Under the pieces are notes generated by a model. The model made no database searches, was not told the origin of the DNA, and worked only from the letters and a program-made list of their open reading frames with translations. From an uncultured Allomuricauda sp. (GTDB taxonomy: Bacteria; Bacteroidota; Bacteroidia; Flavobacteriales; Flavobacteriaceae): a stretch of 51,514 nt of DNA. The first letter of the stretch is position 1. Each line of letters begins with the position of its first letter. The translations under genes and the position numbers were made by a program. Shown one piece after another: positions 888-35,010 of this stretch. The DNA lies in assembly GCF_937884665.1 (NCBI RefSeq), contig NZ_CAKZYF010000207.1, positions 1-51,514 of the forward strand, read 5' to 3'.

Positions 888-1191
888 AGCTCAGAAATGG
901 GCATCTCAGGATGATGTTTAATGTAAATTCTAAGTGAAGGGTAAAAGGTGGTGGTTTTCCCTTTAATTGTTTTCAAACTTAAAAAAATCCATTCAGAAAA
1001 GATTGCACTTATCCGTTTCGGTTATAATGCGGTAGCGGATGGGCAGTTTTGCGCCAAAGGCCCGCGTCAGGGATAACCGCAAAGGAACTGGCGCGTTTGG
1101 ATGACGAGCAAAAATAACTATCAACAGATTTGCCGGACCTGTTTTGTTTTTTTCAAAGTAAGAAAAGTTGGTTTTTACTTGATAAAGATAG
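888..1191. other. Gene-poor stretch holding most of a composite repeat element
   Basis: I see no credible gene here. A minus-strand frame is open across it, but it only reads through repeat DNA (locally GC-rich at 1030-1100) in the middle of an AT-rich patch. The stretch contains the left boundary block TTGCACTTAT and the middle block GAACTGGCG of the element described at 1003-1223. Confidence 0.6.
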
Positions 1192-1223
1192 CTATGGTTT
1201 ATAGCCATTGTTGGGCACCGTAC
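1003..1223 (-). repeat. Composite 3'-end element, copy 1
   Basis: Three blocks occur in the same order and orientation here and at 34841-35010: TTGCACTTAT at 1003-1012, GAACTGGCG at 1085-1093, and cattgttgggcaccgtac at 1206-1223 (15 of 18 bases match the other copy). The right edge of the element is the 3' end of the minus-strand lipoprotein gene. The last codons of that gene (VPNNGYKP) are encoded by the right-hand block. The sequence between the blocks is diverged. The arrangement suggests a mobile or recombinogenic gene-end element. No integrase is present in the window. Confidence 0.5.
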
Positions 1224-1917
1224 TTTTTTGTTTGAAAATACCATAATCTGAAAACTCATCTGACTTAGTAGTTTTTTTAGGTTTCAGAAAGTAGGTGCGA
1301 TTAGAAATCAGAGTATTCGTTCCATCATTGGATAACTCGAGATTTTCAACTATTATCTCAGTCACTAAATTGTTCGCTATTCCAATTATAATGTTCCCTT
1401 TTTTTACTTTTAAAGTGTCGAGTCGTGAATGATGAACCGATTTGGAATTACATAAATCGTAAAACTCTAAACTGTCTCTCGTTTCCTTAAATTCGGAATA
1501 ATCGAACCAAATTGTTCCTTTTCCTTTTTCCCTTAGACCATTTCGTTGATATTTTAATATTGAAATATTTAATCCATGATCTGCTAGTTCATATGAATCG
1601 ATTGGTTTAAAGGAAATTCCATTTTCTTTATCAGGCCAATTTCGTTCTATTGCATTGATACAAAATTTACTCGGAATACCATTTAATTTGTTGATTGGTA
1701 ATTTATTTATTCCAGCGATTGTAAATTTTTGGGTAGTATCTAAAATTGCATAACCGAATAAGTGAGAATCTCGTCCTCCCCATGCATTATACTTATAAAT
1801 GGCTTTAGATGTTCCCGCTATCTTTTGTTCGAAAAGAGTGATATCCCACTCTCCCGGTTTACAACCGCAGAGAATTATGAAAAATCCGTAACAAACAATT
1901 TTAATTATATTTTTCAA
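1192..1917 (-). CDS. Hypothetical lipoprotein, TTG start (241 aa)
   Basis: An upstream TTG at 2025 also opens this frame, but I choose the TTG at 1917. From there the product begins with lysines, a hydrophobic stretch and a lipobox (IILCGC, Cys near residue 17), a clear lipoprotein signal. The extra upstream codons only translate intergenic repeat DNA, including a perfect 10-bp palindrome TTGTGCACAA. The mature protein is polar and soluble-looking, with no motif I recognise. It is probably anchored in the outer membrane or periplasm. The final codons derive from the composite 3'-end element. AT-rich base composition and orphan status suggest horizontal acquisition. Confidence 0.6.
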   Translation of the reverse strand: MKNIIKIVCYGFFIILCGCKPGEWDITLFEQKIAGTSKAIYKYNAWGGRDSHLFGYAILDTTQKFTIAGINKLPINKLNGIPSKFCINAIERNWPDKENGISFKPIDSYELADHGLNISILKYQRNGLREKGKGTIWFDYSEFKETRDSLEFYDLCNSKSVHHSRLDTLKVKKGNIIIGIANNLVTEIIVENLELSNDGTNTLISNRTYFLKPKKTTKSDEFSDYGIFKQKSTVPNNGYKP

Positions 1918-2021
1918 CTTTGAAATGATTTCGAGTATTGTGCACAACGGGCTTGTATATGAAAAGTAGCAGATTAGAAGTGCTATTACTTTGGTTTTCG
2001 GATTAAGATTAACAGAAGAGC

Positions 2022-2040
2022 ACAAGTTTTTAAAACTTGT
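2022..2040. repeat. Perfect 19-nt palindrome between two orphan genes
   Basis: The sequence acaagttttTaaaacttgt is a 9-bp perfect inverted repeat around one central base. It lies between the 3' end of the 150-aa membrane protein gene and the start of the lipoprotein gene. Two GTGCACAA/GCACACAA-like motifs flank it, at about 1939-1948 and 2070-2081. It could be a small hairpin terminator, a protein-binding site or part of a cassette junction. Confidence 0.5.
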
Positions 2041-2118
2041 ACTTTCTAGACTATTTTTTTTCTCTTGTATTGTGTGCCGTTATTTCTTTGGCTTTAAATA
2101 ATTCGCTTCCTTTCTTTG

Positions 2119-2571
2119 TCAAAAAAAACAGGCAATTGAGCCGATTATATTATAAAGTATAATTATTACCCAACCTGTTCCAAGGCGCCATTCAAAGCCA
2201 AGTTTTAAAATCTTCAGAATCCAGTTGGATGGAAAATAACCTGCTTTCATATCATAATAATGCCACAACATTCCTCCAAAAGGTGAGCTTAATAAAATTG
2301 TTATGATTATTATCAGAAAAGTCAAAAGAATTTGTTTTGTCACTTTCTGTTTTAGAAAAGTTTCAGCAAATAAAGTAGCAATCACTCCATAAAAAAAACA
2401 GGGAATAACGATAAACGAAATGGGATATTCCCAGTGATACAAAAACATTCTGTATAAAGCTCCAAATACATAATGTTCAGGCATTATTACCCATAAAATA
2501 TAGTATAGAATGGTCGCAAGGATAAAACTTGTTATCCAATAAAAAAGAAGTCTTTTAATTGCTTTATTCAA
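2119..2571 (-). CDS. Hypothetical four-helix membrane protein (150 aa)
   Basis: I do not recognise the family. Four hydrophobic helices are visible, at about residues 9-29, 50-69, 81-98 and 132-149. The loops contain aromatic patches such as YHWEYP and MLWHYYDMK. The apparent start is TTG (LNKAIKRLL), with no ATG nearby and no Shine-Dalgarno. The last helix ends with the protein (GSIACFF). Copy B of the dispersed repeat begins 32 bp upstream. It resembles other small orphan membrane proteins of accessory regions, and nothing supports a function. Confidence 0.6.
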   Translation of the reverse strand: MNKAIKRLLFYWITSFILATILYYILWVIMPEHYVFGALYRMFLYHWEYPISFIVIPCFFYGVIATLFAETFLKQKVTKQILLTFLIIIITILLSSPFGGMLWHYYDMKAGYFPSNWILKILKLGFEWRLGTGWVIIILYNIIGSIACFF

Positions 2572-2603
2572 TTTGTTTTAGTCTTTCTGTTTTTATGGAA
2601 CAC

Positions 2604-2704
2604 AGCGAAATAAGATATGATTCGTTTTAATTAATGTTATTGACCAATAACTAAAATACCGGAATTTCAATCAAAAATGATCAAGGGAATTGACGGATAC
2701 AGGA
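2604..2704 (-). repeat. Dispersed ~100-bp repeat, copy B
   Basis: Its left half (CGAAATAAGATATGATTCG, then TTTTAAT) matches copy C almost exactly. Its right half (GGAATTTCAATCAAAAATGA, then CAAGGGAATTGACGGAT) matches copy A almost exactly. Copy B thus bridges the other two and shows that all three are one family. The reverse frame that is open in copy A is closed here by several stops. It lies directly upstream of the 150-aa membrane protein gene. Confidence 0.7.
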
Positions 2705-2794
2705 TATGGGTTGACCATGGACAGAATACTGATAAAGTGACCTTGTTCGTTTTGTATCGGGACGACCTTCCTTCAACTTCCTTGCTCCCATACA

Positions 2795-2881
2795 AGATTT
2801 CTCGCTTCCACCTTGTTTCAGCTCGAAATGACAAGCGTTTTCCTTTTGTCATTTCGAAAGGGTGAAACGACTGAGAAATCT
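2795..2881. repeat. Inverted repeat of the 'GTCATTTCG...GAGAAATCT' type
   Basis: The left arm (2795-2833) is the imperfect reverse complement of the right arm (2847-2881). Both read TGTCATTTCG at the loop end and GAGAAATCT at the outer end, around a loop of about 13 nt. Elements of this general appearance are, from memory, common intergenic palindromes in Flavobacteriia. It lies in a 432-bp gap with no gene between the accessory patch and the gld terminator. ORFs on both strands across it are artefacts of its symmetry. Confidence 0.65.
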
Positions 2882-2942
2882 AAAACCAACAAAGAACTTT
2901 TCCTTTCCAATACGTTTTAATTGGAAATAACAAAATAGGGTA

Positions 2943-2972
2943 ATAAAAAACGCCGCACTTTCGTGCGGCGTT
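2943..2972 (-). terminator. Rho-independent terminator of the gldKLMN operon
   Basis: A perfect 10-bp stem (AACGCCGCAC / GTGCGGCGTT) with a 4-nt loop is followed on the minus strand by a T-rich tail (TTTTTTATTA). It lies 31 bp after the gldN stop codon. Confidence 0.9.
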
Positions 2973-3003
2973 ATATGAATTGAATTGGAAATTATTTATC
3001 GGC

Positions 3004-3906
3004 TTAGTATGCCCACATATCTTGCTCGCGGTCGCGAATCACTTCTTTGATTCTATTAGCTTCCAAAAGTTGGAAAAGCGCATTATCAAAGACGTAATCG
3101 TCTATTTCACGGTCACCGTGCACATTTTCTTCTTTGTAGATTACTCCATTGAAGCGTCTTGCGTTCAAGAGCATATCAAAAGAAATGGGTCTAGCGGAAT
3201 TCCTTTGATTGTACACTTTGGCATCGTGCAAAATCTGTCTGGCTGCAGGATACCACACCCAGAACAATTCCACTTTATTTTCCCCAGGATCAACAGATTC
3301 ATCGTCAATAAAGTTAACGTCAGGAGCAACTGGGGCAATCCCCAACAATCGGTATTTCAATTCACCTTGACGTTTGTCGAAATACCAGATTCCCTTGATT
3401 CGGTACTCTTCAATATCGGCTGCTGTCAAATCCCTTTGGTTGATAAACTCCGCGGAAATTTGTTCACCGGCGTTCAATTGCTCATACCCCAAGTCGGTCG
3501 TATCCACTTTTTGCAAGGTTGCTGACAAATCATCCAATCTACGTTTTTCGGTAAAATAGGAGTCTGCATACACCTCGGTCAAGTTTCCATTTCTGATGTT
3601 TTTCATCAAGACGTGGTACAACGACCTTCTATCTGGACCAATACCTATGGTATCGGTTGGGTAGTACAAGGGAAAGTTTACACGCTCGTCCAGGTCAACG
3701 ATTTCCCATACGGTCTTTGACCAGAGGATATCGCGATCATCCACATAACCATAAGCTAAGGGAGCATCTGCGTCCTGCGCGATTTGTGCTTCGGTCTTTT
3801 TCCCAATATCTTCTGGCAACTTGGCATTCAAAATATTTGCCTGTGCCATTATGGAGACGGGCAGTAGACCTAAAACTCCAATTACGAATACATTTTTCCA
3901 ATTCAT
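3004..3906 (-). CDS. gldN: Gliding motility / type IX secretion protein GldN
   Basis: GldN is a periplasmic partner of the outer-membrane lipoprotein GldK in the type IX secretion system, which exports adhesins and enzymes and supports gliding. A signal peptide (about residues 1-21, ending SIMA) precedes the mature chain. The family-typical stretch DILWSKTVWEIVDLDER lies near residue 60, followed by MKNIRNGNLTEVYADSYF. The C-terminal half contains YRIKGIWYFDKRQGELKYR and a Trp-rich segment (ELFWVWYPAARQIL). The length of 300 aa fits flavobacterial GldN. It is the last gene of gldK-L-M-N and is followed by a strong terminator. Identification rests on both sequence and gene order. Confidence 0.95.
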   Translation of the reverse strand: MNWKNVFVIGVLGLLPVSIMAQANILNAKLPEDIGKKTEAQIAQDADAPLAYGYVDDRDILWSKTVWEIVDLDERVNFPLYYPTDTIGIGPDRRSLYHVLMKNIRNGNLTEVYADSYFTEKRRLDDLSATLQKVDTTDLGYEQLNAGEQISAEFINQRDLTAADIEEYRIKGIWYFDKRQGELKYRLLGIAPVAPDVNFIDDESVDPGENKVELFWVWYPAARQILHDAKVYNQRNSARPISFDMLLNARRFNGVIYKEENVHGDREIDDYVFDNALFQLLEANRIKEVIRDREQDMWAY

Positions 3907-3926
3907 GATTTTCTGTATGCTTTATT

Positions 3927-5498
3927 TTAGTTTGTAAGCTCCACTACCACAGGAGAAACTTTCTTCAACTTGTAGCTCCTATTATTGGTAATGTAAGCGT
4001 TGATATCAAAAATCTGAACAGCTTCACCTCGTCTAGCTCGCTTCAAGGCAGATTTGGCCTGTGCGTTCAATTTGTTTCCGTTTACGACAATGGTAGGTTG
4101 ACCTGGTACTTTGAACTTGAATCCACCAACGGCGAGGTTCAAATCGAAGTCAAAGTCTTCCAACATAGCGCTCACAGTAGAAATTTCAAGGTTTCGCCTT
4201 GGCATTTTCACACTACCCGCTTCACCACGGACGGTTCCACTAGGTCTTGGAATATCCTTGATACGGAATTCTGACTTGGTAGAGATTGGCTTACCATCAG
4301 GCAAGGTACCTGAAGCAGTAATCGTGACTGTTCTACCAGTACCTGGATTCATAACGTAGTTGCTACCACTTCGCTTGGATAGACCAGGAGCAGAAGCTCT
4401 AACTTTATTGTTGGGAATACCGGGAATGGAGATTGTCATAGGGTTGGCAACGCCTCGATACACTACATTCATTTTATCCGCAGAAATTACGGCCGCATTA
4501 GGTTTCGTTATTGTTGCAAAAGTACTGTTTACATCCACCGGAACTTCTTCTCCATCTTGTTGGAAAAATAAGGTTCCTTTAATTGTATGGTCTCCAGCTG
4601 CACCTGCACTAATCAGCAGTTTAACTCCTCCTTCTTCTAGAATATAATCCTTGTCTTCTGCTAATTTTCTTCCGTCCAAGGTCAATTCAGCTCTTTCAGG
4701 TTTAGCAGTATTATCTGTTTTGCTGACAATGATTTTACCATCATACTTCTCTCCTGTGTAAAATGCTGTTTTAGAGGCGTCCAAAGACGTGGCGAAGTTC
4801 TTTAAAGAAACCGCCTCGGTCAAATTACCCTCCAACAGTCCTTTTAAAACTTCTTGCTCCGTAGACATTACATCTGCCTGAAGTTGTGTAACTTTTGTCA
4901 AAGAAGCCACCAATGGGTACCCCTCAAAATGGTAATTTATCCAGTCCACTTTTACCTTATCTCTAAGTCTAGTGACTTTACCATCTTTATCACCAGTCTC
5001 AAATCGGGTCTGTACGGCCCCTTTTATTTCAGACATATTCTCGGGAAGAACCGTAGAGATTTTATCTCTATAATTTGTCAATCTAGACAAAAACTCTTCA
5101 CCTTCTGGTTTCAATTTATCCCCTTGAAAGAATAAGTTGTCCAAATAATCCGATTTATCCATAACCACATAGTTATTGGGATCTTCCTGATCGGCCAACA
5201 TACCTTTTTTCAATTCTTCAAGGTATTCATAATACTCTAGGGATAATTTTTGTACTTCTTTGGCTTTTTCAAACAAAGGTCCATACTTGATTGCATCTTC
5301 CGACGCTTTGGTCTCCAGACCTCCAAAGTATGCCAAATTGTTTGCTTCGGCCTTTTCGTTGGAAGTCTCCAACTTAGCATTCATCAAACCGAATGCCGCC
5401 AGTACTTCCTTGCTCATATTCAATGCCAACATCGCGATGAAGATCAAATACATAAGGTTGATCATCTTCTGACGTGGTGTTGCTTTTCCTGATGCCAT
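3927..5498 (-). CDS. gldM: Gliding motility / type IX secretion protein GldM
   Basis: GldM is an inner-membrane-anchored periplasmic protein. With GldL it forms the proton-driven motor of the type IX secretion system and reaches up to the GldK-GldN ring. The sequence starts MASGKATPRQKMINLMYL, followed by one transmembrane helix (about residues 13-33, LIFIAMLALNMSKEVLAAF). A helical region and several beta-sandwich domains follow, with tandem Ig-like segments such as GVANPMTISIPGIPNN. The 523-aa length is normal. It sits 20 bp upstream of gldN and 67 bp downstream of gldL. Confidence 0.96.
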   Translation of the reverse strand: MASGKATPRQKMINLMYLIFIAMLALNMSKEVLAAFGLMNAKLETSNEKAEANNLAYFGGLETKASEDAIKYGPLFEKAKEVQKLSLEYYEYLEELKKGMLADQEDPNNYVVMDKSDYLDNLFFQGDKLKPEGEEFLSRLTNYRDKISTVLPENMSEIKGAVQTRFETGDKDGKVTRLRDKVKVDWINYHFEGYPLVASLTKVTQLQADVMSTEQEVLKGLLEGNLTEAVSLKNFATSLDASKTAFYTGEKYDGKIIVSKTDNTAKPERAELTLDGRKLAEDKDYILEEGGVKLLISAGAAGDHTIKGTLFFQQDGEEVPVDVNSTFATITKPNAAVISADKMNVVYRGVANPMTISIPGIPNNKVRASAPGLSKRSGSNYVMNPGTGRTVTITASGTLPDGKPISTKSEFRIKDIPRPSGTVRGEAGSVKMPRRNLEISTVSAMLEDFDFDLNLAVGGFKFKVPGQPTIVVNGNKLNAQAKSALKRARRGEAVQIFDINAYITNNRSYKLKKVSPVVVELTN

Positions 5499-5565
5499 GT
5501 TATTTATCTAATTAGAATTAATAATTAATTTGATTTGGGTCTTGGTATATCAATCAATATCCCAA

Positions 5566-6219
5566 TTAGTTTCTGCTACCCATGGCAGATAGCATATTTC
5601 CGTATACGCCGTTCAAGGAAGAAAGATTGGTGGCCAAAGACTCCATTTGTTCTTTCAACGCACCTGCATTTTGAACTACTTCCTCATTGATCGAAGCTTG
5701 ACGGCTTGCACTCTCCAATTGAACTTTGTACAGACTGTTCAAAGATTCCATTTGAGCAGCAGCATGGGACAATTCTTCAGAGTACTTTTTCGTGTGTTGG
5801 ATAGCATCTGTTGTAGGGGCTATATTTTTGGCAGCACCCTCAAAACTCTTGATGCTTTCACCCAAACTGGAGAAAAGCTCAGAATCGATATTCGCCTCTT
5901 TCAATAAATCGTCCAATTTTCTGGAAAGAAGACCTTCAGCCTCTTTGGCCTGCTTAGCGTCATTCTTGTTGCCTTTGGATTGTCCATTGGCCAATTCTGG
6001 ATAAACCAATGACCAATCGTATTCATCGTCCACTGGTTCAAATGCACTGATGGCAAAAATCAATGCCTCAGTAATAAGACCTACCGCAAGAAGTAAACCA
6101 CCAGTAAGGGGTCCGAACTCCCAGTGAAGGATTTTAAATAGTGCACCAATAATTACCACTGATGCTCCAAGCCCGTAGGCCATGTTAAACAGTTTTTTTG
6201 TTGATTTTGACTGTGCCAT
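5566..6219 (-). CDS. gldL: Gliding motility / type IX secretion motor protein GldL
   Basis: GldL supplies the two-helix membrane part of the proton-powered GldLM motor. Two transmembrane helices are visible (about residues 10-30 and 38-58). Lys29, His32 and Glu51 within or beside them match, with a +2 offset, residues I recall as important in Flavobacterium johnsoniae GldL. The cytoplasmic C-terminal half is helical and rich in Glu/Gln/Ser, suggesting coiled coil (about 95-205). The length of 217 aa is typical. It lies between gldK and gldM. Confidence 0.95.
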   Translation of the reverse strand: MAQSKSTKKLFNMAYGLGASVVIIGALFKILHWEFGPLTGGLLLAVGLITEALIFAISAFEPVDDEYDWSLVYPELANGQSKGNKNDAKQAKEAEGLLSRKLDDLLKEANIDSELFSSLGESIKSFEGAAKNIAPTTDAIQHTKKYSEELSHAAAQMESLNSLYKVQLESASRQASINEEVVQNAGALKEQMESLATNLSSLNGVYGNMLSAMGSRN

Positions 6220-6294
6220 AATTCTAGTTTTAATTAAGTTATATAATAAGTATTTGGTTACTGGTTAAAATACTATACTTTAAATTTTGTCCAT

Positions 6295-7677
6295 TTAGTT
6301 GGGAAGTCCTCTTCTTCCGTTGGTGGAGTCTTCTTCACCCATATAATCTTGTACAGTCCTGAAGCCGATATAACTTCTGGCCGAATCTTGATATTCATAA
6401 TCCCTTGTGCTCACCTGAAGGAAGTATGCTACATCCTTCCAAGAACCGCCACGAATCACTTTTCTTTGATTGTTTCCTGAACCGATATTCGGGTTCATCG
6501 TAGAAAGATATTCATACGCCCCTTGGTCAAAGCTGGAACTGGTCCATTCAGAAACATTACCTGCCATATTGTACAAATTGTACTCGTTAGGTTCATAGGA
6601 CTTTGCTTCAACCGTGTAAAGGGCTGCGTCAGCGGCATAATCTCCGCGCTGTGGTTTAAAATTCGCCATGAAACAACCCGTATCACTGATAACATAAGGC
6701 CCACCCCAAGGATAGGTTCCTCCTTCAATACCACCACGGGCAGCATATTCCCATTCGGCTTCAGTAGGCAATCTAAATTGGTTCACGAATTGTCTACCTC
6801 TACTTTTCTGGTCATCATTCTTAAATTTGGTTCTCCAGTTACAGAACGCTTTGGCCTGCATCCAGTTCACCCCTACTACAGGATAATCGCTGTAGGCATC
6901 ATGCCAAAAGTAATCGTTGTGCATGGGTTCATTGTAGGAATATTCAAAATCCCGGATCCAAACCGTGGTATCTGGATATATTTCCAGTTCTTCTTGTCTG
7001 ATAAAATCTTTTCGTCTTCCACTTTTGGCTCTGGCGGCTGCTTCAATATCCATCCAGTTGTAACTGTATTTCAATTTGGTAACGTCAACCGTCCTTTGCC
7101 CATTGTAGCTCTCCTCTTCGGGAATGTAAAGTGAGTCCATGACCTCAGCGTAGTATTCGTCGGGGTAATCTGAAGTATCCCAAACCAAATCCACGTCTTT
7201 GTTCAAAGCACGGCCTTCATAACCCGTTTCACCAAGTCCCGCATAGTTGTCCAACATGTAGCGCTCATAGACTGAAATTTTTGTGGTATCGGTATCCTTA
7301 AAGGCATAATCCCCAATTCCTTCATCTTCTGATCCTAAGCCCAGTTCATCTGCCAAAATGGCCAATTTAGTTCTTGTTATGGAATCTTTTACCCATTCTA
7401 CAAACTGACGGTATTCACTGTTGGTAATTTCAGTATCGTCCATGTAAAACGAACGCACAGTAACGGTACGTGTGGGAGCATTGAGCACCTTGGCCTGGTC
7501 TTCCTCGGCCTTACCCATTACAAATGAACCTCGGGGAATCAATTCCATTCCGTAGGGTTTTTCAGGATACCATTTTTTTCCCTTTACCCCGACTAGTTCA
7601 CCTTTTGACCTTGATTTAGAACCGCAACTGGTCAGTAAAAAAACAAGTGCTAGAGATGAAAAGAATAGCTTTCTCAT
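6295..7677 (-). CDS. gldK: Gliding motility / type IX secretion lipoprotein GldK
   Basis: GldK is an outer-membrane lipoprotein that forms the periplasmic ring with GldN. A lipoprotein signal ends in LLTSC (Cys18). The rest is an FGE-sulfatase/SUMF1-like fold: MELIPRGSFVMG near residue 45, MDDTEITNSEYRQF near 80, then RLPTEAEWEYAARGG, YNMAGNVSEW and RKVIRGGSWKD toward the C-terminus. A family-typical long insert rich in Asp/Tyr lies between the N-terminal and C-terminal parts. It is the first gene of the four-gene operon, preceded by a 120-bp promoter-bearing gap. Confidence 0.95.
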   Translation of the reverse strand: MRKLFFSSLALVFLLTSCGSKSRSKGELVGVKGKKWYPEKPYGMELIPRGSFVMGKAEEDQAKVLNAPTRTVTVRSFYMDDTEITNSEYRQFVEWVKDSITRTKLAILADELGLGSEDEGIGDYAFKDTDTTKISVYERYMLDNYAGLGETGYEGRALNKDVDLVWDTSDYPDEYYAEVMDSLYIPEEESYNGQRTVDVTKLKYSYNWMDIEAAARAKSGRRKDFIRQEELEIYPDTTVWIRDFEYSYNEPMHNDYFWHDAYSDYPVVGVNWMQAKAFCNWRTKFKNDDQKSRGRQFVNQFRLPTEAEWEYAARGGIEGGTYPWGGPYVISDTGCFMANFKPQRGDYAADAALYTVEAKSYEPNEYNLYNMAGNVSEWTSSSFDQGAYEYLSTMNPNIGSGNNQRKVIRGGSWKDVAYFLQVSTRDYEYQDSARSYIGFRTVQDYMGEEDSTNGRRGLPN

Positions 7678-7723
7678 ACTTTAGGTTAAATTATTCGATT
7701 TAGATTTTTTAAACTGTGCAACA

Positions 7724-7757
7724 CAATTTTATATTTCCAAAACTGTTTTTCACCCAA
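7724..7757 (-). promoter_or_regulatory. Possible promoter of gldKLMN
   Basis: On the minus strand a TTG (7757-7755) is followed after 21 nt by TATAAAATTG (7733-7724). This resembles the Bacteroidota -33 TTG / -7 TAnnTTTG pattern with one or two mismatches. It would give a leader of about 40 nt before gldK. Confidence 0.35.
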
Positions 7758-7797
7758 ATTATTGTGCAAAAACAATTTATACTCAAAAATAATTTGT

Positions 7798-26111: not shown

Positions 26112-26198
26112 TAAAGTGCGCTAAGACTTAACCAAACTTTAGCGCAATACCGTTGAAATTTTTTCGATTTTTGCACCACTATTTTACACCCAAAATAC

Positions 26199-26204
26199 AA
26201 GGAG
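26199..26204 (+). promoter_or_regulatory. Strong Shine-Dalgarno, rare in this window
   Basis: AAGGAG lies 6 nt before the ATG of the GAF-domain reductase gene. Most other starts in this window lack a recognisable Shine-Dalgarno. It confirms the start at 26211. Confidence 0.65.
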
Positions 26205-26210
26205 AAAATC

Positions 26211-26660: not shown

Positions 26661-26712
26661 AACTCATCCCTTTTTGTTGATAACCCAAGCTTATTTTTCA
26701 TAACAAAAAAAT

Positions 26713-26720
26713 TACTTTTG
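26713..26720 (+). promoter_or_regulatory. Possible purH -7 box
   Basis: TACTTTTG matches the Bacteroidota -7 consensus TAnnTTTG and lies 32 nt before the purH ATG. No convincing TTG is found at the expected -33 distance, so the call is tentative. Confidence 0.35.
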
Positions 26721-26752
26721 TGTGCTTAAGAAATTGATTTTTAGGACACCAC

Positions 26753-28285
26753 ATGAGCACTACCAAAAAAGCAACCAGCGCCTTAGTTTCAGTATTTCAT
26801 AAAGATAGATTAGAACCCGTTGTTAAAAAATTACACGAACTAGGTGTTACGCTTTATTCCACAGGAGGAACCGAAAAATTCATAAAGGACCTGGGCATTC
26901 CCGTAGTCCCTGTTGAGGATGTTACCAGTTACCCTTCCATTCTTGGAGGAAGAGTAAAAACCCTACATCCGAAGGTTTTCGGTGGAATCTTAAATAGGCA
27001 AGACCATGCGGAAGATGTTGCCCAAATGGAAGAATTTGACATTCCACAACTGGATGTTGTGATTGTGGACCTATATCCTTTTGAAAAAACTGTGGCCAGC
27101 GATGCATCTGAGCAGGATATTATTGAGAAAATTGATATCGGAGGGATTTCCTTGATCAGAGCTGCGGCCAAAAACTATAAAGAGGTGCTCTGCGTATCCT
27201 CAATGGAGGATTATGAGGATTTCCTGAATATGATTACCGAAGGGGGCGGCTCCACGTCTTTAGAAGATAGAAAACGCTTCGCAACCAAAGCTTTTAACAT
27301 TTCTTCGCACTATGACTCGGCTATTTTCAAATATTACAACAAGAACCATGAAGAGGCAACACTGAAAATCAGTGAAAAACAGGGAAAAGTCCTTAGGGAT
27401 GGGGAGAATCCCCATCAAAAAGGTTTTTTCTTCGGAGATTTTGAGGCCATGTTCGACAAGTTGCATGGTAAAGAACTCTCCTATAACAATCTCCTGGATG
27501 TAGACGCCGCGGTAAACTTGATGGAGGAATTCCAGGATGATGACCCTACATTCGCCATCCTTAAACACAACAATGCTTGCGGTTTGGCAACACGAAGTAC
27601 CATAAAGCAAGCTTATGTTGACGCCTTGGCGGGAGATCCTATTTCCGCCTTTGGAGGGATTCTGATTTCCAATACAGAAATAGATGTAGCCACATCCCAA
27701 GAAATCCATAAGCTTTTTTGCGAAGTGGTAATCGCCCCGAGTTACAGTCCTGACGCATTGGAGGTGCTTAAAGGCAAGAAAAATCGAATCATTTTAATTC
27801 AAAAAGAAATCGAACTTCCAAAAACGTTGACAAGAACCTGTCTTAACGGAGCACTCGTTCAAGAAAAAGACTTCAAAACGGATAGTGAAAATGACCTAGA
27901 GGCGGTTACCCTTAAAAAGGCAGGTCCTCAGGAAATTGAAGATCTGTTGTTTGCTTCCAAATTGTGTAAACACACCAAAAGTAATACCATTGTGCTGGCC
28001 AAAAACAAACAGCTTTGCGCCAGTGGAACGGGACAGACCTCTCGTGTAGATGCTTTAAACCAGGCCATCCATAAGGCAAAATCGTTCAACTTTGACTTAA
28101 AAGGGGCAGTAATGGCCAGCGATGCCTTCTTTCCATTTCCCGATTGTGTGGAGATTGCCCACAAGGCAGGAATAGGCAGTGTGATACAGCCCGGCGGTTC
28201 AATAAAAGACCAGTTGAGTATCGATTTTTGCAATGAAAATGGCATGGCCATGGTTATGACCGGCACCCGACATTTTAAGCATTAA
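26753..28285 (+). CDS. purH: Bifunctional AICAR transformylase / IMP cyclohydrolase
   Basis: PurH performs the last two steps of IMP synthesis. The N-terminal MGS-like cyclohydrolase domain shows LYSTGGTEKFI, ILGGRVKTLHPKVFGGIL and DIGGISLIRAAAKN. The C-terminal transformylase domain shows RDGENPHQKG, ILKHNNACGLA, SAFGGI and the terminal SDAFFPFPDCVE and IQPGGSIKDQ. The length of 510 aa is normal. The gene precedes the mreB operon by 53 bp. Confidence 0.98.
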   Translation: MSTTKKATSALVSVFHKDRLEPVVKKLHELGVTLYSTGGTEKFIKDLGIPVVPVEDVTSYPSILGGRVKTLHPKVFGGILNRQDHAEDVAQMEEFDIPQLDVVIVDLYPFEKTVASDASEQDIIEKIDIGGISLIRAAAKNYKEVLCVSSMEDYEDFLNMITEGGGSTSLEDRKRFATKAFNISSHYDSAIFKYYNKNHEEATLKISEKQGKVLRDGENPHQKGFFFGDFEAMFDKLHGKELSYNNLLDVDAAVNLMEEFQDDDPTFAILKHNNACGLATRSTIKQAYVDALAGDPISAFGGILISNTEIDVATSQEIHKLFCEVVIAPSYSPDALEVLKGKKNRIILIQKEIELPKTLTRTCLNGALVQEKDFKTDSENDLEAVTLKKAGPQEIEDLLFASKLCKHTKSNTIVLAKNKQLCASGTGQTSRVDALNQAIHKAKSFNFDLKGAVMASDAFFPFPDCVEIAHKAGIGSVIQPGGSIKDQLSIDFCNENGMAMVMTGTRHFKH

Positions 28286-28338
28286 TTTTAGTACTTTAGC
28301 CGAAATTTTTACCGTTAACCAAAAAACTGACGTTCTTT

Positions 28339-29367
28339 ATGGGATTTTTTGATTTCATGACCGAGGAAATTGCGATTGACCTTGGTACTGCAAATACCCT
28401 GATAATTCATTTGGACAAAGTAGTGGTGGACAGCCCTTCCATTGTAGCAAGGGACCGTGTTTCCGGCAAAATAATTGCCGTAGGAAGGGAAGCCAACATG
28501 ATGCAAGGGAAGACCCATGAGAACATCAAGACCATCAGACCGCTTAAGGATGGTGTAATTGCAGATTTTGATGCCTCTGAAAAGATGATCAATATGTTCA
28601 TCAAGAACATTCCTGCATTAAAGAAGAAGTGGTTTCCCCCCGCCCTACGTATGGTCATTTGTATTCCATCCGGAATAACAGAAGTGGAAATGCGCGCCGT
28701 ACGGGAATCCGCAGAGCGCGTGAATGGCAAAGAAGTATACTTGATCCATGAGCCCATGGCCGCTGCCATTGGTATTGGTTTGGATATCATGCAGCCCAAA
28801 GGGAATATGATTGTCGATATAGGAGGTGGGACAACTGAGATAGCGGTAATAGCGTTGGGTGGAATTGTTTGTGATAAATCGGTTAAGATTGCCGGAGATG
28901 TGTTCACCAACGATATCATTTATTATATGCGAACGCAGCACAATCTTTATGTCGGTGAAAGTACTGCAGAAGCCATTAAAATCGAAATTGGTTCTGCAAC
29001 AGAGGATTTAAAATCACCCCCAGAAGATAAATCCATTCAAGGAAGAGACCTGCTTACCGGTAAACCGAAGCAAGTACAAGTTTCCTATCGTGAAATAGCC
29101 AAAGCACTGGATAAAAGTATTTTACGCGTGGAAGATGCCGTAATGGAAACCCTATCCCAAACCCCTCCGGAACTTGCCGCAGATATTTACAATACGGGCA
29201 TTTATCTTGCTGGTGGGGGTTCCATGTTACGGGGATTGGACAGAAGGCTTTCGCAAAAGACAGATTTACCGGTTTATATTGCCGAAGACCCTTTGAGAGC
29301 GGTTGTACGCGGAACGGGAATCGCCCTAAAAAATCTGGAACGCTACAAAAGCATATTGATTAAATAG
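28339..29367 (+). CDS. mreB: Rod shape-determining protein MreB
   Basis: MreB is the bacterial actin that guides elongation-mode peptidoglycan synthesis. Actin-fold phosphate motifs are visible: AIDLGTANTLI at residues of about 12-22, MIVDIGGGTTEIAVI near 160, and GIYLAGGGSMLRGLD near 290. EPMAAAIGIGLDI is also characteristic. At 342 aa it has normal length and leads the mreBCD-mrdA-rodA operon. Confidence 0.98.
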   Translation: MGFFDFMTEEIAIDLGTANTLIIHLDKVVVDSPSIVARDRVSGKIIAVGREANMMQGKTHENIKTIRPLKDGVIADFDASEKMINMFIKNIPALKKKWFPPALRMVICIPSGITEVEMRAVRESAERVNGKEVYLIHEPMAAAIGIGLDIMQPKGNMIVDIGGGTTEIAVIALGGIVCDKSVKIAGDVFTNDIIYYMRTQHNLYVGESTAEAIKIEIGSATEDLKSPPEDKSIQGRDLLTGKPKQVQVSYREIAKALDKSILRVEDAVMETLSQTPPELAADIYNTGIYLAGGGSMLRGLDRRLSQKTDLPVYIAEDPLRAVVRGTGIALKNLERYKSILIK

Positions 29368-29430
29368 ACGCACACTGAATATTTGTGCGGGAAGACAGGA
29401 GTCCCGCAAGCTTTCTAACCCAACGATTGC

Positions 29431-30249
29431 ATGCAACGCATCATCAATTTAATTCTTAACTATAGAAATACGTTTCTCTATGGTTTTTTGGCGTTGATTT
29501 CCTTAATACTCACCATTCGTTCACATTCGTATCATCAATCGAGATTCTTCAACTCTTCAAAATGGGTAACTGGAAAAGTATACGGCACCGCGGCAAGCAT
29601 TTCTGAATACTTCTCATTAAAAGAAGAAAACCAAATATTGGTCGAAGAAAATGAACGCTTACGAAAGTTACTTTTCAATACATCCACAGAAAATCAAAAA
29701 CTCGCGTTGGACTCCACGGAATTGCGGTACACGGTAACAAATGCCTCGGTAATCAAAAACAGTTTTTCATCACCCAGAAATTATCTAACCATCAACAAAG
29801 GAAAAAATGATGAAGTGGCACAGGACATGGGCGTTATCACTACTAAAGGAATACTGGGTATTGTTGAGAACACATCTTCTAACTTCTCAACGGTTCAAAG
29901 TGTACTGAACACAAAATCAAACATAAACGCAAAAATCAAAAACACAGATTATTTTGGTTCATTGGTTTGGGATGCCCGGGATTACAGAACGGTTCAACTT
30001 GTTGATATTCCCAGATTGGTGCCCATTGTAGTGGGTGACACGATTGTTACCGGAGCAATGTCCAGTATTTTTCCAGAGAACATTCCCATTGGTGTCATCC
30101 AGAAGTATGATTTAAATGACTCCAAAAGTTTTTACAATATTGAGGTTGAGCTATTTAATGATATGGCCAATGTAAAAAATGTCTATTTGGTTAAGAACAA
30201 AAACAAGGAAGAAATAAAGGAATTGGAAGCGTTGACCACAGATGAATAA
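29431..30249 (+). CDS. mreC: Rod shape-determining protein MreC
   Basis: MreC is a bitopic inner-membrane protein that links the Rod complex to PBP2. One transmembrane helix lies at about residues 14-30. It is followed by a coiled-coil stretch (LKEENQILVEENERLRKLL, about 65-84) and the MreC beta-domain, with GILGIVENTSSNFSTVQSVL near 143 and the terminal VGDTIVTGAMSSIFPENIPIG near 215. It overlaps mreD by 8 bp. Confidence 0.95.
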   Translation: MQRIINLILNYRNTFLYGFLALISLILTIRSHSYHQSRFFNSSKWVTGKVYGTAASISEYFSLKEENQILVEENERLRKLLFNTSTENQKLALDSTELRYTVTNASVIKNSFSSPRNYLTINKGKNDEVAQDMGVITTKGILGIVENTSSNFSTVQSVLNTKSNINAKIKNTDYFGSLVWDARDYRTVQLVDIPRLVPIVVGDTIVTGAMSSIFPENIPIGVIQKYDLNDSKSFYNIEVELFNDMANVKNVYLVKNKNKEEIKELEALTTDE

Positions 30250-30748
30250 TGTTGTTGTCTTAAATATTCTACGATTTGTCTTACTTGTACTGACCCAAGT
30301 CCTGATTTTCAATACCCTTAATTTTCTCGGACTTATAAATCCCATGGTGTATGTGATTTTTTTGTACTGGTATCCCATAAAGGGGGATAGGGCCGTTTTT
30401 TTGATCACAGCGTTTTTCTTGGGACTTATTGTCGACGTTTTTTCTGATACCTTGGCATTACATGCCTTAGCTACCCTGACCGCAGCCTTTATACGACCTT
30501 TGATCATGCGGTTTTGTTTTGGAGTAAACTACGAGTTCCAAAACTTTAGTTTCAAAAACACAACGAAGGTCCAGCGCCTCACCTTTTTAGGCTTATTGGT
30601 TTTGGTACATCATCTTGTATTCTTTTTCCTTGAAATTTTAAGTTTATCACATATCCTTTTAATTTTGAAGAAAATTGTAACTACAAGTTTGGTCACGTTT
30701 TTCTTATGTGCCATGTTTAGTTCACTTTTTAGTCCCAAAAGCGAATAA
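30242..30748 (+). CDS. mreD: Rod shape-determining protein MreD
   Basis: MreD is the small multi-pass membrane subunit of the Rod complex. The 168-aa protein has about five hydrophobic helices, with the family-like stretch FLGLIVDVFSDTLALHALA in the middle. The overlap with mreC and the following mrdA support the assignment. Confidence 0.9.
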   Translation: MNNVVVLNILRFVLLVLTQVLIFNTLNFLGLINPMVYVIFLYWYPIKGDRAVFLITAFFLGLIVDVFSDTLALHALATLTAAFIRPLIMRFCFGVNYEFQNFSFKNTTKVQRLTFLGLLVLVHHLVFFFLEILSLSHILLILKKIVTTSLVTFFLCAMFSSLFSPKSE

Positions 30749-30801
30749 AACCGAAGTATATCCGTTAGGAAAATATACGGTTGCCCAATTAGTTCTGACG
30801 T

Positions 30802-32667
30802 ATGAAAAAACTGTTACTATCTTCAGTGGTTGTTGTTATCGGCTTTACTTTTATCAGCCGTCTTACCTATTTACAACTTTTGAGTTTCTCTCCAGATCAA
30901 ACTTTGGATGATCCCGCCATCAAGGCCATCTATGACTACCCGGAACGGGGCTATATCTATGATAGAAACGGTGAGTTGCTGGTGGGCAATCAACCGGCCT
31001 ACGATGTAATGGTCATTCCTAGGGAGGTAAAACCCTTAGATACTTTGGAATTTTGTAAGCTTCTGGGTATTGAAAAAGAGGCATTCATTTCCAAAATGAA
31101 AAAGGCGAAAACCTATTCCCCAAGATTACCGTCAGTTCTTGTGCCGCAACTTTCGAAAGAGGACTATGCTGGACTACAGGAAAAAATGCGGCATTTTGAA
31201 GGTTTTTACATTCAGAAAAGGTCTTTGCGCTACTACGCCACAGACAGTGGCGCCAATGTTCTGGGATACATCAGTGAAGTCAACGAAAGGGATTTACAGA
31301 ACAATCCTTATTATGTTGCTGGGGAGTTAAAAGGTCGCACGGGCATAGAGAAGCAATATGAAGAAGTACTTCGAGGGAGAAAGGGAATACAGTACATTCA
31401 GAAAGACCGTTTCAATCGGGATATCGGTCCGTACAAAGGGGGGAAACTGGATACACTCCCCAAACAGGGAAGAGAAATACGAATAACCCTCGACAAAAAA
31501 CTCCAGGAATATGGTGAACGACTCATGCATGGCAAAAGAGGAGGAATTGTCGCCATAGAACCAAAAAGTGGAGAAATCTTAGCAATGATTTCAGGACCTA
31601 CCTACGATCCATCCCTTTTGGTAGGAAGGAAACGATCACGGAATTACACAAAACTGCATTACGATACCATATCCAAGCCCACTTGGGACAGGTCCATTTT
31701 GGCAGAACCTTCCCCAGGGTCGCCATTTAAAACGTTGAATGCGCTCGTGGCCCTGCAAGAGGGGGTAATAGACACTTCTACCAAATTTAGGTGCTACAAC
31801 GGTTTTTATGTGGGCAGTACCAAAAGAGGGTGCCACTGTGGCGGGGGTGTCCGTGATATGAATTCAGGTATCTTCAAATCATGCAATGCATATTTTGCCG
31901 GGACCTTCAGAAAGATTTACAATAAATATCCCACCACGGATGAAGGCATGGATGTTTGGGAAGGACACATGAAAAGTTTCGGTTTGGGGGGATATCTGGG
32001 CACGGACCTGCCAACAGGAAGACCCGGAAGAATTCCGGACAAAACCTATTATGACCGGGCTTATGGAGATAACAGATGGTCCTCTTCCTTCATTATCTCC
32101 AATTCCATAGGCCAAGGCGAAGTAGCGGCGACCCCGCTACAATTGGCCAATATGACCGCAGCCATAGCCAATCGCGGTTATTTTTACACCCCACATATCA
32201 TTAAAAACATCAGTAACGAAAATATTGACCCAAGATTTACAGAACCACGCTACACCACCATAGATCGGGAACATTTTGATCCTGAAGTGGAAGGTATGGC
32301 CAATGTGTATAAATATGGTACCGCACGTTGGTTGCAGATCCCGGAAATAGAAATCGCGGGTAAAACCGGTACTGTTGAAAATTTTGTCCGCATCGACGGT
32401 GAGCGCATGCAATTGACCGACCACTCCGTTTTTGTCGCCTTTGCACCTGTTGAAAATCCTAAGATAGCATTGGCCGTCTATATTGAAAACGGCTACTATG
32501 GAGCCCGATATGCCGGGCATATTGCATCGCTGTTGATAGAAAAGTATATCAAAGGAGAAATTACGAGAACCGATTTGGAAAAGAGAATGTTGGAGAAAAC
32601 GCTTGAACACGAATATGCCAAACCCTATAGCGGGGAACCTTTCAAGATAAACGAATATGTCTGGTAG
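30802..32667 (+). CDS. mrdA: Penicillin-binding protein 2 (elongation transpeptidase)
   Basis: PBP2 cross-links peptidoglycan during elongation with RodA. An N-terminal transmembrane anchor (about residues 3-22) is followed by the pedestal domain (RGYIYDRNGELLVGN near 50; GYISEVNERDLQNNPYY near 155). In the transpeptidase domain the active-site SxxK is within PSPGSPFKTLNAL near residue 307. The KTG motif is in EIAGKTGTVENF near 518. It overlaps rodA by 11 bp. Confidence 0.96.
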   Translation: MKKLLLSSVVVVIGFTFISRLTYLQLLSFSPDQTLDDPAIKAIYDYPERGYIYDRNGELLVGNQPAYDVMVIPREVKPLDTLEFCKLLGIEKEAFISKMKKAKTYSPRLPSVLVPQLSKEDYAGLQEKMRHFEGFYIQKRSLRYYATDSGANVLGYISEVNERDLQNNPYYVAGELKGRTGIEKQYEEVLRGRKGIQYIQKDRFNRDIGPYKGGKLDTLPKQGREIRITLDKKLQEYGERLMHGKRGGIVAIEPKSGEILAMISGPTYDPSLLVGRKRSRNYTKLHYDTISKPTWDRSILAEPSPGSPFKTLNALVALQEGVIDTSTKFRCYNGFYVGSTKRGCHCGGGVRDMNSGIFKSCNAYFAGTFRKIYNKYPTTDEGMDVWEGHMKSFGLGGYLGTDLPTGRPGRIPDKTYYDRAYGDNRWSSSFIISNSIGQGEVAATPLQLANMTAAIANRGYFYTPHIIKNISNENIDPRFTEPRYTTIDREHFDPEVEGMANVYKYGTARWLQIPEIEIAGKTGTVENFVRIDGERMQLTDHSVFVAFAPVENPKIALAVYIENGYYGARYAGHIASLLIEKYIKGEITRTDLEKRMLEKTLEHEYAKPYSGEPFKINEYVW

Positions 32668-33940
32668 AGGTCTGGTCAAAAGAATAGATTGGTTCACTGT
32701 TTTTTTATATGGTCTTTTGGTTTTTATCGGATGGATAAACATTTATTCCACCACACTTACCGACCCAGATGCCTCTATTTTCAATTTTTCCACGTCTTAC
32801 GGAAAACAGTTGTTTTTCATCATTGCCTCCTTGGCGGTCATTGTTTTGGTGCTCTTTGTGGAATCCAACTTTTTTGAGCGCTTTGCCCCTATTTTTTATG
32901 TGGGTTGTTTGGTGCTTTTAGTGGGTCTTTTCCCTTTTGGCAAAACGATTGCCGGAGCTACTTCGTGGTATGATTTGGGCTTTTTCAATCTGCAGCCTTC
33001 TGAGTTGGCCAAAGTGGCCACGGCACTTGCCCTGGCAAAATATCTTAGTGATATTCAAACCGATATAAAAAATAGAAAGTACCAGTTATATGCGCTATTG
33101 ATTATATTATTGCCTGCATTACTGGTTCTGCCACAGCCAGACCCGGGTAGTGCGCTCATCTATTTTTCACTCTTTTTTGTGCTTTTTAGGGAGGGCTTCC
33201 CGCTGTACTATCTTGGAATTTTGCTTGTAATGATAGTACTCTTTGCCACTACCCTCATGTTTGGTACTGTTTGGGTGTCCATCGCATTGGGCATACTTAC
33301 TGTTCTCGTCTTCGTTTTCAAACGAAAAACTGCCAAAATCCCCCTATTGCCCTTAGTTGTAACACTAATAACATCTGTCTTGTTTTCTTTGTCTGTTGGA
33401 TTTGTATTTGACAACGTTTTTGAACAACGCCATAGGGACCGTTTCGCACTTTGGTTGAGTCTTGAAAAAGATGAAAGGAAACTCGAGGAAATTCGGAAAA
33501 CCATTGGCTACAATACCTATCAATCAGAAAAAGCCATCGAGTCCGGAGGGTTTTTTGGAAAAGGTTTTTTGGAAGGTACGCGGACCAAGGGAGATTTTGT
33601 GCCGGAACAACACACGGATTATATTTTCAGCTCAGTAGGAGAGGAATGGGGCTTTATGGGCACTACCACCGTGATCGTAATTTTTTCCATTTTCTTTCTT
33701 CGTCTTATTTATGTGGCCGAACGGCAAAAGAGCGATTTTAGCCGCATGTATGGTTATGGGGTTATCTCCATTCTACTTTTTCATTATTTCATCAACATAG
33801 GGATGGTCATTGGACTGCTGCCCACCATTGGGATTCCCTTGCCTTTTTTTAGTTATGGCGGTTCCGGACTCATGTTCTTTACCTTGTTGCTGTTCGTTTT
33901 TTTAAAATTAGATTCAAATCGACTGCGGGACGGGCTTTAA
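32657..33940 (+). CDS. rodA: Peptidoglycan glycosyltransferase RodA
   Basis: RodA is a SEDS-family glycan polymerase partnered with PBP2. Ten or so transmembrane helices are visible. Family motifs include GATSWYDLGFFNLQPSELAK near residue 100, PQPDPGSALIY near 158, GGFFGKGFLEGTRTKGDFVPE near 295 with the following HTDYIFSSVGEEWGF, and the terminal GIPLPFFSYGGSGLM. It is the last gene of the operon. Its stop overlaps, tail-to-tail, the stop of the nuclease gene on the other strand. Confidence 0.96.
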   Translation: MSGRGLVKRIDWFTVFLYGLLVFIGWINIYSTTLTDPDASIFNFSTSYGKQLFFIIASLAVIVLVLFVESNFFERFAPIFYVGCLVLLVGLFPFGKTIAGATSWYDLGFFNLQPSELAKVATALALAKYLSDIQTDIKNRKYQLYALLIILLPALLVLPQPDPGSALIYFSLFFVLFREGFPLYYLGILLVMIVLFATTLMFGTVWVSIALGILTVLVFVFKRKTAKIPLLPLVVTLITSVLFSLSVGFVFDNVFEQRHRDRFALWLSLEKDERKLEEIRKTIGYNTYQSEKAIESGGFFGKGFLEGTRTKGDFVPEQHTDYIFSSVGEEWGFMGTTTVIVIFSIFFLRLIYVAERQKSDFSRMYGYGVISILLFHYFINIGMVIGLLPTIGIPLPFFSYGGSGLMFFTLLLFVFLKLDSNRLRDGL

Positions 33941-34743
33941 AGTTTCCAAGCCGCTGCATTGACCTTAGCTTCGATTTCATTTTGCCATTCTTCGGATTTT
34001 TGGGCAAAAAAATCGAGATTTGTCCTTTCTTCCAACTCATCCACGGTCACAATAAAATCACTTAAAGGTAAATTGCTCGCTTGGTTTGGGATTAGGAACG
34101 ATATCACTTGAACCGCTTCGGCACCATCCGTATTTCGAAATACCACTTTGTAAAAAGCCTGGGGCACATCAACATCTTCTTGCCCAATTTCCCTAAGGCC
34201 CTTTTCCAAAACCCCTCCGGTGATCACACCTAAATCACCATACGTTTTACACCAATACCGCACCTGTTGCTCCAGTCGATTCCATACCCCGGCATTGAAG
34301 TCTCGGTCCTGTGGGCTAATGTTGCTGGTATAAAAGGTTTCGTTGTAGGCTTGTTCAGAAAACCTACGGTCCCCTGCTGGGCAAAGATGACCTCTATCAT
34401 AACCTGAACCTCTGTAATTACGCCAGTCCGCAGATTTTGATTTTACTTCGGGGTCTTCTATAAAGTAAGGTCTTTTTCTATCATCATTTGTTAGGTGCTC
34501 TCTGTGAAGAGGATAGGCCACCCATTCTGCTTGTTCATGCGGTTCGCTGTAGGATAAGGTATAATATTCGTGCGTTACAATATTGCCATAGGTAGAGCTT
34601 GGCAGTAAATCAAGTTCTAAAACCTCTGAATTTTCCCCTTCTCCTTCTTTAGAATACGTAGCTGGCGTATAAAAATTCTCAAAAAGCCAAAAGCCTACGA
34701 TACAAAGGGTGATTAGGAGGGTATAAACCATTCTTTTGCTCAT
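33937..34743 (-). CDS. DNA/RNA non-specific endonuclease, membrane-anchored or secreted
   Basis: A hydrophobic N-terminal segment (about residues 5-22) suggests a signal anchor or signal peptide. The nuclease domain carries the beta-beta-alpha-metal motif GYDRGHLCPAGDR (general-base His in DRGH) and the metal-ligand region TSNISPQDRDFNAGVWNRLE. It probably degrades extracellular or periplasmic nucleic acid for nutrient scavenging. No immunity protein gene is adjacent, which argues against a toxin. It faces rodA tail-to-tail, with a 4-bp overlap. Confidence 0.92.
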   Translation of the reverse strand: MSKRMVYTLLITLCIVGFWLFENFYTPATYSKEGEGENSEVLELDLLPSSTYGNIVTHEYYTLSYSEPHEQAEWVAYPLHREHLTNDDRKRPYFIEDPEVKSKSADWRNYRGSGYDRGHLCPAGDRRFSEQAYNETFYTSNISPQDRDFNAGVWNRLEQQVRYWCKTYGDLGVITGGVLEKGLREIGQEDVDVPQAFYKVVFRNTDGAEAVQVISFLIPNQASNLPLSDFIVTVDELEERTNLDFFAQKSEEWQNEIEAKVNAAAWKL

Positions 34744-34840
34744 GGGTGCAAAGTAGGCAAATGAAATGGATTTAAATACATGCTAAAGTAAAGCGCTGTA
34801 CTAATCTTTAGACCGCTTAAAATAGGTATCAATTTTATAC

Positions 34841-35010
34841 TTGCACTTATTGGTCACATATAACGGTCAGTTAAGGTTTTAAAGTTACCGTTTTTCAGAT
34901 AAGAACTGGCGTTAGCAGTTCCGATTGGATTCGTTTAAGCCTGCCCTGAGCAAAGTCGAAGGGTAGTCGAATCCGCTGTAATTGCTGTCATACATTGTTG
35001 TGCATAGTAC
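34841..35010 (-). repeat. Composite 3'-end element, copy 2, with nested hairpins
   Basis: This copy shares three ordered blocks with 1003-1223: TTGCACTTAT (34841-34850), GAACTGGCG (34903-34911) and cattgttgtgcatagtac (34993-35010). Within it an imperfect inverted repeat TAACGGTCAGTT (34861-34872) / AACTGGCGTTA (34904-34914) has one unpaired base, reminiscent of an integron attC stem. A second long hairpin (34914-34986) has AGCA/TGCT at its base and GGATTCG/CGAATCC higher up, with a central CCCTGAGCAAAGTCGAAGGG. The right edge falls one base before the stop codon of the orphan gene. No integrase is present. Confidence 0.55.

Follow-up and report, generated by a model that had tools for sequence, protein, structure and literature searches.

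Comparison of a 51,514-nucleotide stretch of DNA from an uncultured Allomuricauda sp. (the window; positions 1 to 51,514 of contig NZ_CAKZYF010000207.1, assembly GCF_937884665.1) with related genomes indicates that two composite elements at the ends of orphan genes are very probably the 3′ ends of gene cassettes, each lodged within a conserved docking site, between its two halves, and likely inserted there by an integron-like site-specific recombination. The cassette sits at CG|, and both halves of the site are retained. We further propose, with confidence somewhat better than even, that these cassettes belong to a second integron lineage that is free of the IntI-specific domain and widespread in Bacteroidota, and in which cassettes circulate between recombinase-linked arrays and genus-specific conserved hairpin docking sites dispersed over the chromosome, with the whole genome serving as the platform.

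The composite elements consist of three blocks, each present exactly twice in the window, on the + strand and in identical order: TTGCACTTAT at 1003 and 34841, GAACTGGCG at 1085 and 34903, and the 18-bp block CATTGTTGkGCAyyGTAC at 1206 (1206-1223) and 34993 (to 35010). As a preliminary description of this DNA had stated, the copy that ends at 35010 lies one base from the stop codon of a minus-strand open reading frame (ORF; 35012-35521), and the copy at 1206-1223 falls within the final codons of the ORF at 1192-2025. Along the direction of the gene (- strand), the order is 5′ repeat, gene, 18-bp block, GAACTGGCG block, and ATAAGTGCAA. The two copies are not close duplicates, as a search of their own genome with 34830-35020 is significant only for itself (next E = 0.7), and their significance therefore rests on a wider family rather than on three short words. 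That description took these blocks, together with the 5′ repeat, to outline a two-sided gene-cassette system. The idea stands, but the anatomy does not: the insertion site consists of two halves, the 5′ repeat and TTGCACTTAT, which are joined when it is empty, and the cassette's own attC-like end is only the block around CATTGTTG plus the stretch up to the right half-site. The diagnostic feature had also been missed, namely a cassette-specific inverted repeat formed by a 5′ core (GTT...) and an inverse core at the stop codon.

The comparison set comprised 71 genomes of the same genus and 77 other genomes (148 in all); G000 is the window's own genome. Empty sites in sister strains, anticipated in the preliminary description, were found at L048 and also at L258, L271, and L275. 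Behind the same gene, the site is empty in L048 (genome G037) and filled in L055 (G057), where an insert of 544 bp lies exactly at AACG|ATAAGTG; the left flanks of the two loci align up to AACG, with one 17-nt indel about 100 bp upstream, and the right flanks align from ATAAGTG onward, with one single-base indel. At L039 (G020) and L040 (G024) the docking site is identical and the flanks are near-identical, and the genes are different; the inserts of 763 and 865 bp have as their sole similarity found a 136-nt attC end (85%). The window's second site sits behind the gene of a tail-specific protease, which was detected in 70 of 70 genomes. A motif search of 30 fetched protease loci revealed a docking site in two of them, those of G000 and G004, and the respective inserts (672 and 819 bp) have only the attC part in common, at 73%. 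Seven of the 28 site-less loci were read by eye, and in five of these the same gene comes close behind the protease terminator, whereas a different one comes next in the other two. The notion that docking sites occupy the same places throughout the genus is thus rejected for the protease gene. Cassettes thus vary at a site that is itself present only in some lineages.

These loci bear directly on a transposon akin to a miniature inverted-repeat transposable element, with terminal inverted repeats CACTTATC/GATAAGTG and passenger genes, that would be moved whole by a transposase acting in trans. The site halves are indeed inverted repeats, and the presence of site plus cassette at the protease gene in two loci, unseen in the other 28, suggests that the docking site itself spreads by some means. 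However, the repeats stay joined at AACG|ATAAGTG in empty sites, the boundary of the insert falls inside the repeats and not outside them, the arms differ from gene to gene whereas the outer halves are constant, and cassettes of the same make occur in tandem arrays that have no halves. Moreover, no target duplication was seen at L048/L055. Such a transposon is disfavored for the cassette, and we regard it as highly improbable.

The undivided docking site reads CACTTATCG-GTC-(inner stem, loop ATTAAAAC)-TTAAA-CG|ATAAGTG, that is, CACTTATCG...CGATAAGTG overall, and is predicted to fold as a hairpin. Its best-conserved part is AACTTCACTTATCGG, followed by the inner stem around the loop ATTAAAAC and then TTAAACG. 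Empty copies (L046, L048, L258, L271, and L275) pass directly from the inner stem into CGATAAGTG, which allows CACTTATCG and CGATAAGTG to pair as an outer stem enclosing the inner stem; TTGCACTTAT corresponds to the right half of the outer stem. The stem covaries: 96.4% of cells are paired, five of the nine pairs have changed on both sides, and the 25 cells changed on both sides compare with 6.0 in shuffles, none of 500 shuffles being equally high. Sliding the stem partner by 1-3 columns cuts pairing to 23-54%. A DNA-similarity search that scored five candidates in each genome places the 5′ repeat in 51 of the 71 same-genus genomes, and a covariance model built without the window copies detects the docking site in 63/71 same-genus genomes versus 3/77 others. 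Up to 20 copies were found in a genome (29 candidates scored); G000 has five, three of which are inside the window. There is also a second version of the site, with another stem (GCTAAA...TTTAGC) and the same loop ATTAAAAC, in L184, L188, L271, L273, and similar loci. Upstream of the docking hairpin lies a conserved block that, we speculate, may provide a promoter.

In filled sites, CG is usually followed by GTT and cassette-specific bases whose reverse complement stands at the stop codon, as in GTTGTACACC...GGTGTACAAC, GTTAGCATAC...GTATGCTAAC, and GTTGGCAAA...TTTGCCAAC; most cassettes have GTT plus 6-7 bases of their own as the 5′ core. These arms were assessed at 60 docking sites from six genomes, 49 of which could be parsed (3 empty and 46 filled). 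The reverse complement of the 10-nt core lies within the downstream stretch that was fetched in 36 of the 46 filled sites, exactly in 16 and with one mismatch in 20, and when cores were permuted among sites the corresponding rates were 0.09% and 9.9%. The bases after GTT vary freely (GTTAGCA, GTTGTGC, GTTACCA, and GTTGGCA) and do not conform to GTTRRRY, the canonical integron core. Four of the 46 filled sites begin with GCT or GTC, and GTT is likewise lacking from several of the unparsed sites.

Homologous recombination between docking sites and attC-like ends, swapping genes with no dedicated recombinase at work today, has several observations in its favor: site halves and attC ends are alike between loci (L039/L040), many site-bearing genomes have no recombinase of the type described below, and the gldN locus of G000 carries tandem units with a duplicated flank. 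Yet the filling that separates L055 from L048 requires insertion at one exact point, and the gene-specific complementary arms would be left unaccounted for. We therefore consider this alternative unlikely, albeit the least so among the rivals.

The inverse core is followed by the attC-like region, which is mostly about 126 nt long (also about 62 or 190) and ends in CC(G). Among 69 measured lengths, 50 are 123-131 nt, 5 are 61-63, and 7 are 186-193, the remaining seven being 48, 93, 120, 152, 161, 162, and 334 nt. Most lengths of these attC-like sites fall in steps of about 63 nt (62, 126, 190, and one of 250), and such a step in a folded hairpin would equal about three helical turns of the stem. 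Attachment sites of this kind are arranged in tandem and in the same orientation, the native sites lying between consecutive cassettes; locus 1 of the window has two. Of 56 native sites, 30 were delimited at their far end by the next core, 15 by a motif, and 11 by the right half-site. With one site of more than 200 nt excluded, the remaining 55 fold with a mean z of -2.7 relative to dinucleotide shuffles, 71% of them below -2, and inner arms with at least 8 paired bases occur in 69% of sites when sought within the site versus 6.5% between different sites. This predicted folding and the pairing of the arms support an attC that would recombine as a folded single strand.

It might be supposed that the blocks are transcription terminators or 3′ regulatory elements that unrelated genes have in common, as they stand at gene ends and are able to form hairpins. 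But the elements span about 50-250 nt, end at a fixed exchange point, and lie between the genes of arrays, and gene and element are jointly present or absent in sister genomes. As a full account this is refuted, and we give it almost no credence.

Diverse genes between conserved ends, also anticipated in the preliminary description, emerged from a scan of cassette ORFs against Pfam and a defense library. The 105 of 120 finder ORFs that were scanned gave 71 Pfam families, only five of which occur in more than one protein (PF00144 in five), and 32 defense-library families, each confined to one protein among the 25 listed. The cassette pool is diverse, matching the expectation for a cassette system.

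Cassettes of the same make form arrays beside a tyrosine recombinase in Bacteroidota. The array finder demands complementarity of core and inverse core; at 22 recombinase loci, 13 of which have hits, 43 strict cassettes lie on the array strand versus 1 on the opposite strand. The recombinase comes in two builds, a long one of about 380 aa whose array follows downstream on its own strand and a short one of about 272-287 aa with a divergent array. The long build carries an N-terminal addition of about 100 aa (residues 1-100, e.g., in L107:1186-2325) that gave no Pfam hit in the two long-type proteins scanned; in a model of the L310 protein this addition is predicted to be mixed alpha/beta. In some loci, an imperfect palindrome ending in CAATT or similar precedes the first GTT core and is a candidate attI. 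Outside Bacteroidota, cassette-like units lie beside related recombinases in L321 and L337 (one strict hit each) and L344 (three), which belong to Spirochaetota, Magasanikbacteria, and Firmicutes bins, respectively.

None of the 148 genomes, scored on translated DNA pieces, exceeds the cut-off for IntI (TIGR02249), and four whole array-linked recombinases reach 197-216 bits, in two stretches, against a cut-off of 265. In the two proteins compared with 2a3v the IntI-specific insertion is absent, with 21-26 residues where 2a3v has 64-69. The nearest solved relatives of the recombinase core by sequence are 5hxy and 4a8e (XerA/Xer), and a fold comparison of the core (model residues 102-364) also points to Xer. 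A recombinase tree left the relation to housekeeping Xer unsettled, as 2 of 12 Xer candidates were parsed, with very long branches, and 10 were dropped.

These results weigh on the possibility that the window holds remnants of a classical integron, that is, clusters of attC sites lacking integron-integrases (CALINs) that derive from an ordinary IntI integron whose integrase has been lost or lies unseen elsewhere. The architecture of array, core, and attC is integron-like, the genome holds cassettes without an array-type recombinase, and IntI integrons have been reported in some Bacteroidota, for example, Salinibacter ruber (PMC9024848; also PMC8618304 and PMC2426708). Against this stand the absence of any TIGR02249 match above cut-off in the related genomes, the subthreshold scores of the array-linked recombinases, and the missing insertion in those compared with 2a3v. 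We judge a classical remnant to be very unlikely.

In the mechanism that we favor instead, integron-like insertion into docking sites, the cassette would circularize and its two arms would pair, giving a folded single strand that resembles an integron attC; a recombinase would then join this folded hairpin to an attI next to the recombinase gene, to a further attC, or to a dispersed docking hairpin. The work would be done by a recombinase without the IntI-specific insertion. Because the window's genome has no such recombinase, we propose that in its lineage the enzyme acted in trans or before its loss. For the same reason, and because sites and recombinase do not co-occur genome by genome, we infer which enzyme serves the docking sites from the common construction of the cassettes; on this basis, the array-linked recombinase likely moves the docking-site cassettes, and trans action, later loss, or another recombinase (e.g., the housekeeping Xer pair) are all possible.

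A number of observations weigh against this interpretation. G000 has no match to the array-type recombinase at 1e-30. Recombinases above 190 bits occur in 34 of the 71 same-genus genomes (one a partial match), only some of which were checked for arrays, and co-occurrence with docking sites within the genus was tested and is unsupported (30/63 genomes with sites versus 4/8 without); the site-rich genomes G061 (20 sites), G009 (18), G035 (14), and G023 (13) have no recombinase above 190 bits. No plausible strict cassette was found at 6 of 20 recombinase loci, three of them cut by contig ends, or at 9 of the 22 loci of the strand count; in L136 the first strict cassette is about 7 kb away, and stray single hits in Xer-like loci of other phyla (e.g., L353, L363, and L370) reflect the background of the finder. 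Regarding the arms, 4-5 of the 20 one-mismatch matches are expected by chance, the test failed in 10 of 46 filled sites, 11 of 60 sites were unparsed, and the parser favors GTT. The window's own arms, complementary at 9, 8, and 7 of 10 positions (cassettes C, B, and A), are somewhat decayed, and when folded singly its elements for the most part show no unusual stability (z -0.12, -2.19, and -0.68). How the docking site itself spreads is not explained, and the case for cassette movement rests on sequence comparison.

The units of the window all lie on its - strand, and their docking sites were scored with R1, a model built without the window copies. At the second site, the left half of the docking site, which is the 5′ repeat of the preliminary description, occupies 35523..35610 (82.5 bits, E 4e-14; also seen in alignment and covariation) and includes the upstream conserved block, CACTTACCGG, and the inner stem-loop GATATCGTTC-ATTAAAAC-GAATCATATC. 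Cassette C begins with the 5′ core GTTGTCCATA (35513..35522), after the G of which the crossover presumably falls, and which is complementary (9/10) to the inverse core TATGCACAAC at 34997-35006. Its gene (35012..35506) encodes an orphan protein of about 164 aa from an ATG start read by eye, the ORF having been listed from a TTG at 35521, with no Pfam match at E <= 1 and no NCBIfam match at E <= 0.001. The attC-like 3′ element (34851..35006) contains most of the CATTGTTG block plus the GAACTGGCG block and is 73% identical over about 165 nt to the attC of the same site in G004, which has a different gene; a short CTACCCTTCGACTTTGCTCAGGGCAGG-type repeat within this region (34935-34965) may be what extends the element to 156 nt. 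The right half of the site, ATAAGTGCAA (TTGCACTTAT on the + strand), lies at 34841..34850 and abuts the left half in empty sites.

Locus 1 runs from the docking site (2607-2694) through gene A, its attC, core B, and gene B to an attC reaching 1013 and the right half-site at 1003-1012. It thus reads as an array of two cassettes, which explains the two additional junctions that had been reported at about 1939-1948 and 2070-2081; both are genuine, the former being the core of cassette B and the latter the inverse core of cassette A. The left half-site (2607..2694) is degenerate (43.2 bits, E 2.2e-5). Cassette A has the 5′ core GCTGTGTTCC (2597..2606), which is decayed and complementary (7/10) to the inverse core at 2069-2078 (the GCACACAA junction), a gene for an orphan protein of 150 aa (2119..2571) with no Pfam family above cut-off and no NCBIfam match, and an attC-like element of 130 nt (1949..2078), within the 123-131 length class. 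Cassette B has the 5′ core GTTGTGCACA (1939..1948; the GTGCACAA junction), complementary (8/10) to the inverse core GGTGCCCAAC at 1210-1219. Its orphan gene (1192..1917, from a TTG start at 1917 by reading) encodes a predicted lipoprotein with a signal sequence recognized by eye and, like the other two orphans, exceeds no Pfam or NCBIfam cut-off; the ORF as listed from 2025 would begin within the preceding attC. The attC-like 3′ element of cassette B (1013..1219) has 83% identity over 204 nt with a place in G027, and the right half-site occupies 1003..1012.

A third left half-site lies at 709..796 (57.4 bits, E 1.5e-8), and behind it is a putative cassette gene of 181 aa (73..618), assigned by position, for which no 3′ end could be discerned before the contig end. 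The neighbors in the window include the type IX secretion genes GldM and GldN, which are indicative of Bacteroidota. Between two docking units, positions 835-905 partially duplicate the beginning of the gene found next to gldN, on its downstream side, in relatives, and another contig of G000 (L376; G000:C167) carries another docking site with right-end-like sequence ahead of the true post-gldN gene. The gldN locus of G000 has the appearance of several units in tandem, interrupted at the contig end. An Rfam scan of the window found no family above the gathering score. In the same genome, the short inverse-core pattern has one exact place (in the window) and four with one mismatch, not above the reversed control, and DNA-similarity searches with the 3′ element gave few full-length relatives, mainly as only the first 30-40 bases match.

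Integron surveys detect integrases via the IntI-specific domain, and IntI is defined by this additional domain (PMC9668308; PMC2426708). The IntegronFinder 2.0 survey reports very few integrons in Bacteroidetes, with only In0 earlier and one complete integron, in Salinibacter ruber, in 2022 (PMC9024848); Bacteroidota are nevertheless named among integron-bearing phyla elsewhere (PMC8618304). No description of the present system was found in the literature searched, which included few subscription papers and no preprints. If array-linked recombinases lacking the IntI-specific domain do move cassettes, then many integrons, and with them many orphan genes, have escaped notice in a major bacterial phylum, the domain is not essential for cassette recombination, and cassette capture works without a single platform; many unexplained orphan genes would be members of a shared mobile pool.

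The resemblance to integrons extends to mostly single-gene cassettes in one orientation, a 5′ core (G|TT) with an inverse core at the stop codon, a predicted hairpin attC with outer and inner arms and unequal spacers, an array beside a tyrosine recombinase, and variable genes that mostly belong to no named family. The attC layout, with outer arms, unequal spacers, inner arms, and a variable tip, resembles that of integron attC sites (PMC11641012). In contrast to integrons, the recombinases examined here have no IntI-specific insertion, the long type is extended N-terminally by about 100 aa and has a codirectional array, the core after GTT is free, the arms are 9-10 nt, and cassettes also occupy dispersed conserved docking sites. 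CALINs are defined by at least two attC less than 4 kb apart (PMC9668308) with no integrase in reach; locus 1 has two attC-like ends in a genome without an array-type recombinase. A further comparison is with attG sites (Loot et al., 2024, as cited in PMC12444791 and PMC11641012), described as widespread genomic sites, neither attC nor attI, that take integron cassettes. There, as here, cassettes enter the chromosome outside the integron, whereas the target in our case is a conserved genus repeat with a covarying stem that is found empty, filled, and exchanged. Xer enzymes resolve chromosome dimers at dif. XerA/Xer proteins are the nearest solved relatives of the recombinase core, but the recombinases described here adjoin cassette arrays, and the long type has its N-terminal addition. 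The system appears to function as integrons do; with IntI as the criterion, it falls outside them.

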